In this document: positions 50,090-52,600 of the stretch, in pieces
Layout of the letters: each line of letters begins with the position of its first letter
Numbering within the stretch: the stretch's first letter is position 1
Origin: Thalassospira lucentensis MCCC 1A00383 = DSM 14000
GTDB taxonomy: Bacteria; Pseudomonadota; Alphaproteobacteria; Rhodospirillales; Thalassospiraceae
Direction: 5' to 3'
Length of the DNA: 64,000 bases
Assembly (NCBI RefSeq): GCF_000421265.1
Contig: NZ_ATWN01000006.1
Location: 62,001 to 126,000, forward strand
Program-made: the position numbers and the translations under genes
The notes under the pieces: generated by a model
The model's input: only the letters and a program-made list of their open reading frames with translations
What the model was told of the DNA's origin: nothing
The model's database searches: none

Positions 50090-50791
50090 CTAGGTTATAT
50101 GGCGTCGCAGCAGATCCATTGCCGCATTAAGTTGCGTCATGCGTTGGTGCGATCCGTAATTGCTGTCGGGATGATGGATGGCGGCAAGCACGCGATATTT
50201 GGTTCGAATTTCGCGTAAATCCGGCCTAGCACTTGGCGCAAACCCCATGACATGTAGGGCCTCGTTGAAGGTGGTCACACCGCGATCAAGCGGATCAAAA
50301 GCCAGATTATCAACAATCTGACGCAGACGTTCGAGTTCTTCGCGCGATTGCAAAAGTTCGACCGGGGGTTCGGCCTGACGCTTTTTCAGTGCGCGGGCTT
50401 CGGCGAGTGCGGCACTTTCGGCAGCCAGGATATCGGATTTCTCAACCCGCATTTTGACATCGCCCGTGTCAAAATCCAGCGCCATTTTCAAAGCCTTACG
50501 CACCATGATGATGGAAAACCCCGGTGGCAGGCGCAATTGCAGGCGCGGCTTTCTACGCCAAGGACGCCCTTCGGCCGGGCCGGATTTCAAAACAATGGTT
50601 TCTCGGTCCGACTTGGGTGGATCACCCGGATCATCATACTCATCAATCGCCTTTTCCGGCACGATCAGCATTACAGAGCGCGCAAGGTCGGCGGCATTCA
50701 CCCCGCGCCGTTCGGCCAAGGCCTGCACCGCATCACGGAAAACCGACGAACAAGGAATGGTGTAGGATTGTTTGACGCCCGGTGTGGTCAC
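50090..50791 (-). CDS. C-terminal J-domain protein
   Basis: Protein of 233 residues from a GTG at 50791 with GGGGAA 5 nt upstream, which fits better than a TTG at 50806. The J domain is at the very C-terminus: DLREIRTKYRVLAAIHHPDSNYGSHQRMTQLNAAMDLL, with the HPD motif intact, so it should stimulate a DnaK-type chaperone. The N-terminal 160 residues (with a helical KKRQAEPPVELLQSREELERLRQ) are of unknown function and probably select the client. Next to the DnaA-box region. Confidence 0.88.
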   Translation of the reverse strand: MTTPGVKQSYTIPCSSVFRDAVQALAERRGVNAADLARSVMLIVPEKAIDEYDDPGDPPKSDRETIVLKSGPAEGRPWRRKPRLQLRLPPGFSIIMVRKALKMALDFDTGDVKMRVEKSDILAAESAALAEARALKKRQAEPPVELLQSREELERLRQIVDNLAFDPLDRGVTTFNEALHVMGFAPSARPDLREIRTKYRVLAAIHHPDSNYGSHQRMTQLNAAMDLLRRHIT

Positions 50792-50819
50792 GAATATTCC
50801 CCACAAGCATTTGATTTAT

Positions 50820-51520
50820 AATACTATATCAGTGTTTTTACGGCGCACGCCGGACATTGAATGGTTAAAGTCTATCGGCGGATTCCGGGCTGGGCAACTG
50901 CATTTGCAGTCAAAATTTGAATCGCTTCCGATTCATCCACAGGCCCTATTCGGTCGTCAAACCGCGACTCGGAACTGTTTGATAGAACTTAAACACCTGA
51001 TATACCAAGGATATTAACGATTCCCGGCACGTTTGGTTTATTTGTCTGATGAAAAGATAGTCAACAAACTTATCCACAAGACTTTGCAGTGGATAACTCT
51101 CCAGACACATCTAAGACATTGAATCATAAGGACTATCATTATGAATCATTGCGTTTGATTTTCGCTCCTGCGCAGGGGCCAAATCGACTTTTTGAAGTAA
51201 AAATGGCGTCGTTGTTTCCATCTTGCCAACCTGAAAACTACATATGCAGTTACGCCATCGACATTCGGAACATAACCGAAAGTAAATGGAGTGTTAATTT
51301 TACACTCGCCCCACTGTTCAGAGCGATTTTAGGCGGGTTTTTGATGCTTTTGCGGGTAAAATAAGCAGCATTGAATACGATATAACTAGTTGATATATAA
51401 CAGATTAGTGATGATTTTTAGTGTTCTTACGGGATACACTGCCAAGGCAGCCAAAATCATTTCGATAAGCGTACGAATTCCATCTACGTATGCAGTTTTA
51501 ATTGCTGACTCAGACAGATT
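50820..51520. other. gene-free AT-rich region with DnaA boxes and clustered GANTC sites
   Basis: No supported gene from 50807 to 51717. A perfect DnaA box, TTATCCACA (51070-51078), is followed 9 nt later by an inverted near-perfect box (TTATCCACT on the minus strand, 51088-51096). A third near-match, TCATCCACA, lies at 50933-50941. GANTC, the CcrM methylation motif, occurs eight times between 50881 and 51511, seven of them within 267 bp. A 91-codon frame at 51089-51364 starts at GTG inside a box and is not convincing. The features suggest a replication-control locus (origin or DnaA-binding site). Confidence 0.45.
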
Positions 51521-51624
51521 TTAGCCGCTTTTTTTGCGCTTTTTTGTCAAAGAACCAAAACTGAAAGTTTCGCAACCGACTGTAATACATACGATTTTTG
51601 GTCTTTCCGGCTCAACTGAAAACA

Positions 51625-51650
51625 GGCCACATCAGATTGATGCGGCCCGT
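51625..51650 (-). terminator. likely terminator after tesA
   Basis: On the minus strand the transcript forms GGCCGCATCA (complement of 51638-51647) and TGATGTGGCC (complement of 51625-51634), a 10-bp stem with one G-U pair and an AUC loop, followed by TGTTTT. It lies 70 bp past the tesA stop. Confidence 0.6.
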
Positions 51651-51717
51651 TTGGCAAAATCATAAAACGTCTCGTCGTAGAGATGCCGTGGGCAAAACCG
51701 GGAGATGCCCGCCCCGG

Positions 51718-52431
51718 TTAAGACCCGGAGGTGATGATAGAAACAACATCTGGCAGGATACGCCCGACGATTTCATCAACACCCTGTGCATTGGGATGCA
51801 TGCCATCATCCTGATTAAGGGCCGGGTCAGCCGCGACGCCATCAAGGAAAAATGGATATAAATCAACCTGATACTCGCTTGCGAGATCGGGATAGATGCT
51901 GTTGAATTCATCGCCATATTGCATGCCCATATTGGGCGGAGCCATCATGCCAGCCAGCAAAACATCAATGTCCATTGCGCGCAATTTTTCGATGATCTGA
52001 GCCAGATTATCGCGGGTCTGGGCCGGTTCCATGCCGCGCAAGGCATCATTGGCACCAAGTTCAAGCAACACCGCATCGGGTTTATCAACCAATGCCCAGT
52101 CAAGCCGCGCCAGCCCTGCTGCTGTGGTATCGCCAGAAACGGAACTGTTGACGACATTGATTGAATGCCCGGCATCCTTCAAGGCGGCTTCAAGCTTTGG
52201 CGCAAAGCCGTTTTCTTGCGAAAGTCCATAGCCCGCCATCAAACTATCGCCAAATAAAACAAGGGTTTGCGGCTTGTTTTCACTAGCATTGGCATTGGCA
52301 GGTGCAGACAGGAAAATGGCCGCAACCCCAAACAGGATTACACTGCTGCGCGAGACAAACCGCGCGGCACGCCATAGCGGATTTGCAGTGAACTTGATTA
52401 CACTGCACCCTTGCCCGAAGCCAAAATTCAT
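51718..52431 (-). CDS. tesA: periplasmic GDSL esterase (TesA type)
   Basis: Acyl-CoA thioesterase/lysophospholipase of the SGNH family, 237 residues from the ATG at 52431 (GGGA upstream). The signal sequence lies in residues about 25-48 (SSVILFGVAAIFLSAPANA), preceded by basic residues. Catalytic motifs: LFGDSLMAGYGL (Ser), ELGANDALRG (Asn) and DGMHPNAQG (Asp-His). It is divergent from the YbbA-YbbP ABC genes with 169 bp between the starts, the same grouping as tesA-ybbA-ybbP in E. coli, so a shared role in exporting or clearing lipid-like compounds is plausible. Confidence 0.94.
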   Translation of the reverse strand: MNFGFGQGCSVIKFTANPLWRAARFVSRSSVILFGVAAIFLSAPANANASENKPQTLVLFGDSLMAGYGLSQENGFAPKLEAALKDAGHSINVVNSSVSGDTTAAGLARLDWALVDKPDAVLLELGANDALRGMEPAQTRDNLAQIIEKLRAMDIDVLLAGMMAPPNMGMQYGDEFNSIYPDLASEYQVDLYPFFLDGVAADPALNQDDGMHPNAQGVDEIVGRILPDVVSIITSGS

Positions 52432-52600
52432 TACACATCCCATCTCATATGCCTGTTACTTTGTGAAACGGTTACCATACGGTTACCTGCGAACGGCGCA
52501 TTTCAAACCTGTTATGGTTGAACCGAAACCCTGCGTTTCCGTATGAGTATTTAGCCCGCATTCTTATTCTTGCAATGGATTAAGCCCGATAGGACCCCAG

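Follow-up and report, generated by a model that had tools for sequence, protein, structure and literature searches.

The promoter regions of ctrA, podJ, and mipZ in Caulobacter combine GANTC sites, CtrA motifs of the TTAA type, and DnaA motifs, as outlined in PMC4287350, and GcrA/GANTC promoters are among those described in PMC3667746. Two other accounts concern the E. coli datA locus, with its DnaA boxes and IHF site near oriC (PMC4585315), and the F-plasmid protein TraY, a single-chain ribbon-helix-helix (RHH) protein that acts beside IHF on bent DNA (PMC12117103). We analysed a 64,000-nucleotide window of Thalassospira lucentensis (G000:C6:62001-126000 of a 21-contig genome, where G000 is the window's own genome) and, within it, the spacer between a J-domain gene and tesA. 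A first-pass annotation had taken this spacer for a possible replication origin, with a DnaA-titration or cell-cycle control site as the alternative. It appears probable to us that the spacer is a compound, autoregulated promoter and operator region of the J-domain gene with cell-cycle inputs, whose gene product binds a palindrome at its own promoter, P1. Our literature search found no paper on the spacer locus and none pairing Thalassospira with GANTC; the query 'datA' was blunt and also matched 'data'.

The spacer is real and strongly conserved. In a BLASTN search with the spacer, matches were obtained in 27 of the 29 Thalassospira genomes (its own included) and in none of the 31 others; the match in the congener G027 was a chance hit of 23 bp at another place, which leaves 26 real ones. 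With the J gene used as anchor, the spacer was located between the J gene and tesA in 29/29 genomes, and a fixed layout was directly observed, comprising P1, palindromes of the CTRC-N4-GYAG type, a GANTC pair, a CtrA-like box, IHF-like sites, and a perfect DnaA box. The conserved islands are P1 with the palindrome O1, the GANTC pair with TCATYCACA; the box at 51070; the IHF-like sites I1, I2, and I3; the palindrome O2 with the CtrA-like box; and the palindrome O3. Between them lies unconserved DNA of varying length. A loose P1 pattern, GTTGC-N18..20-TANA[CG][TC], was found beside O1 in 29/29 genomes, the -10 and -35 being assigned by promoter patterns that we presume to apply.

Summed over the 29 spacers and compared with 200 dinucleotide shuffles, the palindromes numbered 69 (0.5 in shuffles), the IHF-like sites 49 (2.6, by an E. 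coli-based consensus that we assume to hold for these spacer sites), the CtrA-like boxes 29 (2.1), the GANTC motifs 158 (98.7), and the perfect DnaA boxes 16 (0.3; zero in 13 genomes); because the genomes are related, these counts are not independent. The full CtrA site TTAA-N7-TTAA occurred in 0/29 spacers (2.8 in shuffles), with the variant of the TTAA-N7-TTTAC type in 29/29. The most telling evidence of conservation comes from changes that keep a motif: in six divergent genomes the first GANTC of the pair has gone from GAATC to GACTC, so that GANTC is retained, and the N7 letters of the CtrA-like box vary while the motif stays. The first-pass annotation had overlooked the best-conserved elements, namely the palindromes, P1, and their tie to the J-domain gene.

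O1, a candidate operator, abuts P1 in 29/29 Thalassospira genomes, and a matching site was found at the J gene of 45 of 51 outgroup genomes. This outgroup set comprises 47 genomes of the order and four named alphaproteobacterial assemblies, of which two are near-copies. The matches were scored with a matrix built from the Thalassospira sites, which in the DNA upstream of the J gene exceeded the 95th percentile of shuffles in these 45 and the 99th in 37. Of the 45 outgroup sites, 40 are oriented like the gene; GTTG forms the end of 35 and GTTGA that of 23, so the right half of the palindrome often falls on a TTGA -35-like element; the outgroup form is often AAAACAAC-N4-GYAGTTGA. The strict palindrome pattern was found in none of nine outgroups, and the relaxed pattern and the matrix did find the site. 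This directly supported recurrence at the orthologous gene indicates that the gene-site relation is older than the genus. In the 51 outgroup upstreams (730 bp each, with expectations from 100 shuffles), IHF-like sites occurred in 15 (1.6 expected), CtrA-like boxes in 11 (1.7), and full TTAA-N7-TTAA in 10 (1.2), while GANTC was not enriched (112 vs 141.6 expected) and neither the paired GANTC nor a perfect DnaA box was seen in any (0/51 each). On these counts the sites of IHF and CtrA type seem to be old and of patchy occurrence, and the paired GANTC and the DnaA box seem to have been added in Thalassospira.

The gene's product is predicted to join an RHH-like (TraY-like) domain to a J domain. 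The Pfam DnaJ model scored 23.8 bits, under its 27.8 cut-off, and matched at E<=0.05 in 50/50 homologues; a J fold with the HPD motif is present in the product. In the AlphaFold2 model (predicted local distance difference test, pLDDT, 89.7), the predicted N-terminal fold aligned best (VIA-align) with F-plasmid relaxosome chains at 8-12% identity. Signs of RHH architecture (beta-alpha-alpha) were noted, the modelled second RHH unit being incomplete, and their support is structural and partial; we take the protein sequence, too, to read as RHH. The top Foldseek matches of the N-terminal model were condensation domains of nonribosomal peptide synthetases, which were dismissed as noise because their TM-scores were low. 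At E<=0.001 the protein had matches in 149 of the 199 genomes sampled from the order, spread over 63 of 85 genera, and no study of an RHH-J fusion was found in the literature search.

A pattern scan of six genomes matched the spacer in five of them and, in all six, the DNA upstream of one gene for a PfkB-family kinase; judged by its upstream sequence, this gene is a likely second target. Within 330 bp upstream of it, the loose pattern was found in 27/29 genomes and is degenerate in G011 and G026. The conserved upstream block (G000:C6:308550-308814) carries a palindrome-like site and, in 23/29 genomes, TTAA-N7-TTAA. It also has an inverted repeat, in many genomes of the form CGACCG..CGGTCG, and in 29/29 a -35 of the TTGC type that precedes TATACT by about 16 bp. 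In G013, G010, G005, and G027, the four congeners of one or two contigs that were checked, the kinase gene lies ~79-84 kb from hemE. A large palindrome regulon was considered and dropped, as the pattern stood at or below the reversed control in 6/6 genomes and two later patterns were without genome-wide excess. A PhaR-type site was also considered as an identity for the CTGC-N4-GCAG palindrome. As separate observations, AACTGCATGTGCAGAT lies upstream of a znuA-like gene, a possible further target, at a distance of ~370 bp in two genomes (G027:C1:1274213 and G019:C1:935071; L202, L204), and a palindrome match common to G005 and G010 falls inside a reading frame.

From these elements we infer a circuit in which the RHH-like product would bind O1, abutting or overlapping the P1 -35, and control its own synthesis, probably by repression, and in which DnaK may act on the product-operator complex through the fused J domain. 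IHF-like bends, if occupied, would bring O2, O3, and the CtrA-like box near P1, and GANTC methylation, through CcrM and GcrA, would report fork passage. O2, O3, the GANTC pair, and, in one species group, the DnaA box, all of them extra elements of Thalassospira, would tie expression to replication and the cell cycle; occupancy by CtrA, IHF, and DnaA and the cell-cycle timing are presumed in this scheme. GANTC lies near the promoter, as in promoters of the CtrA/GcrA/CcrM type, and CcrM and GcrA are both encoded: GcrA and the RAMA domain were found in 3/3 genomes searched, and the CcrM model gave 632.8 bits (E 1e-190), under its cut-off of 830. More tentatively, and in our view less probably than not, the protein may represent an order-wide family of chromosomal TraY-like RHH-J co-chaperones that bind their own and the kinase promoter and can be remodelled or released by DnaK. 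IHF and CtrA would then be partners of long standing, and the Thalassospira switch would be wired to the cell cycle via DnaA and the methylation of GANTC at a nucleoprotein hub close to the origin.

Table 1. Features of the spacer and its flanking genes, in window coordinates.
Feature	Position	Strand	Remarks
Intergenic control region (probable) between the J-domain gene and tesA	50807..51717	.	911 bp; synteny kept in 29/29 Thalassospira genomes
J-domain gene, 238-aa product; likely start GTG at 50791	50090..50806	-	RHH-like N-terminal and C-terminal J domain (predicted)
Predicted promoter P1 (J-domain gene), with -35 GTTGC 50894-50898 and -10 TAGACT 50869-50874	50869..50898	-	
GANTC between P1 -35 and -10	50881..50885	.	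GANTC inside the P1 stretch in 13/29 genomes
Palindrome O1 AACTGCATTTGCAGTC, operator-like	50896..50911	.	Abuts P1 -35; matching site upstream of the J gene in outgroups
GANTC-N6-GANTC pair	50919..50934	.	28/29 Thalassospira genomes
DnaA near-match TCATCCACA	50933..50941	+	Fits the Caulobacter DnaA consensus [TC][TCG][AG]TCCACA as given in PMC2877005; TCATYCACA in 23/29 genomes
IHF-like I1	50990..51002	-	One mismatch in the window; strict WATCAA-N4-TTR 13/29, relaxed core 26/29
Perfect DnaA box TTATCCACA	51070..51078	+	Exact at the aligned place in 16/29 genomes
Inverted DnaA near-match TTATCCACT	51088..51096	-	9 nt from the perfect box; 2/29 spacers (G000, G001)
IHF-like I2	51112..51124	-	One mismatch in the window; strict 7/29, relaxed core 23/29
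Palindrome O2 AACTACATATGCAGTT	51236..51251	.	
CtrA-like box TTAA-N7-TTTAC	51282..51297	-	Pattern TTAA-N7-TTNAC once per spacer, 29/29
IHF-like I3	51383..51395	-	Exact WATCAA-N4-TTR; strict 17/29, relaxed core 24/29
Palindrome O3 ATCTACGTATGCAGTT	51482..51497	.	
tesA, GDSL esterase, flanking gene	51718..52443	-	Pfam Lipase_GDSL_2, 102.8 bits; name tesA from the first-pass annotation

The motif inventory of the first-pass annotation held up. All three DnaA boxes or near-boxes were recovered where it had placed them, eight GANTC lie within 50881-51511, seven of these in 50881-51147, and the spacer is AT-rich, at 42.6% GC (978-bp slice used) vs 0.48-0.58 in 2-kb bins of the window. Its comparison with related genomes, proposed as a check, bore out conservation of the GANTC pair (28/29), the perfect DnaA box (16/29), and the synteny (29/29). 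The claimed excess of GANTC over chance was also confirmed, since the motif is avoided in this DNA (67 in the window vs 240 expected from shuffles; 1.05 per kb over 1.19 Mb of the relative G013), and eight in ~630 bp are thus well above background. The cluster is not unique, as at least six GANTC were found in 36 of 11,520 overlapping 700-bp windows of G013, where the spacer homologue holds six. It was noted separately that 700-bp windows at 336.4 kb and 713.3 kb of G013:C1 each contain eight GANTC and no DnaA-like box, and that 131.7-132.4 kb of the same contig contains seven in 700 bp, ~1 kb upstream of dnaA (129,161-130,615, minus strand). DnaA-like boxes at <=1 mismatch numbered 12 in the window (10.5 expected), and perfect boxes numbered 23 genome-wide vs 29 for the reversed control pattern; without an overall excess, a perfect box by itself is at chance level, and the one in the spacer is supported because it is kept at one aligned place in 16/29 congeners despite diverged flanks. 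In a combined scan of 1.19 Mb of G013 with five criteria, which were picked after the locus had been seen, at least three coincided in the focal spacer only.

DnaA boxes, a GANTC cluster, and AT-rich DNA without genes are what would be expected of a chromosomal origin, yet we give this reading next to no probability. The GC-skew check suggested by the first-pass annotation was run in G013 (a single contig of 4,701,725 bp, sampled in 60 stretches covering 1.19 of 4.70 Mb), and it refuted the oriC reading: the skew went from -0.034 at 294-314 kb to +0.031 at 314-334 kb, with all stretches at 117-314 kb negative and all those taken from 314-488 kb positive. Values close to zero were found at 541-621 kb, and mixed values between 4.33 Mb and 0.10 Mb, across the zero point. 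The sign change at ~314 kb falls beside hemE (309-310 kb), with parB at 332 kb, and not at the focal homologue (581 kb). The 700-bp window starting at 310.3 kb contains nine GANTC and seven DnaA-like boxes, the densest in the sampled sequence. In the window's own genome, hemE lies on another contig, C10, with two perfect DnaA boxes within ~550 bp upstream; the 720 bp upstream of it (L125:761-1480) hold six GANTC, five TTATCCA-type boxes, and no strict IHF match. This region is, from its motifs, the likely chromosomal origin. Titration of DnaA, or a datA/DARS-like locus at which DnaA boxes and IHF bending lower or reset active DnaA near the origin, would accommodate the presence of GANTC and IHF-like sites alongside the DnaA box(es) of the window, as well as the distance of the locus from hemE, ~271 kb in G013, 276 kb in G010, 285 kb in G005, and, taken from the J gene, 352 kb in G027. 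The spacer has one to three boxes vs the five of E. coli datA (one perfect box in 16/29 genomes and two more near-matches in the window), the perfect box is absent in 13/29 genomes, including G010, G005, and G027, where the other elements are kept, and the best-conserved part is the promoter-like block. A datA-like role is therefore possible but unlikely, and as an account of the locus we consider titration very improbable. Of the two alternatives of the first-pass annotation, titration gained weak support, and a cell-cycle control site fits better than an origin, given the conserved GANTC pair, the CtrA- and IHF-like sites, and the encoded GcrA and CcrM.

That a small RNA or short protein gene accounts for the conserved blocks is still less probable. 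The second block has short inverted repeats with promoter-like -35 and -10 elements, and reading frames of 81 and 91 aa are present; against this, Rfam gave only a sub-threshold PrrF match (24 bits vs a cut-off of 90, E 0.36), and conservation takes the form of short islands split by unconserved DNA of variable length. The same control region could also be read with another transcription factor binding the palindromes and controlling the J and PfkB-family kinase genes, the J protein having no DNA binding here. The kinase gene has the same site though it is unlinked to the J gene, and the RHH evidence is purely structural and partial, both of which favour such a regulator. Against it, the site goes with the J gene in much of the order, which is the pattern that autoregulation would give, and the fold predicted for the gene's own product is DNA-binding-like; we hence regard a separate regulator as rather unlikely and retain autoregulation by the J-domain protein as the preferred explanation.

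Under this autoregulatory interpretation, a suspected origin becomes a regulatory circuit open to testing, and for a widespread, little-studied protein the analysis predicts a DNA-binding-like fold, an operator, and a second target. If true, this interpretation would provide a direct link from DnaK co-chaperones to transcription with cell-cycle inputs, coupling proteostasis to gene control. The analysis also places the likely hemE origin of Thalassospira.

Compared with known systems, the spacer resembles the alphaproteobacterial hemE oriC in combining GANTC and DnaA boxes in AT-rich DNA, but the hemE cluster is located elsewhere in the genome and has more TTATCCA-type boxes (5 in 720 bp). It shares with E. 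coli datA/DARS its non-coding character, DnaA boxes, and IHF-type sites, and like datA it lies in the origin-side part of the chromosome; it differs in having fewer DnaA boxes, which are unconserved across the genus, and a conserved core that is promoter-like. The predicted N-terminal fold of the J-domain protein is nearest to F-plasmid relaxosome chains, which recalls RHH relaxosome accessory proteins such as F TraY and plasmid MobC, the latter of which, in RA3, reportedly autoregulates its own operon. In contrast to these, the gene is chromosomal, and its product has a C-terminal J domain and an incomplete second RHH unit. The compound cell-cycle promoters of Caulobacter (ctrA, podJ, mipZ) likewise combine GANTC, CtrA-type, and DnaA motifs, whereas here the core is a gene-tied palindrome, the IHF-like sites are repeated, and the second half of the CtrA site is TTTAC.
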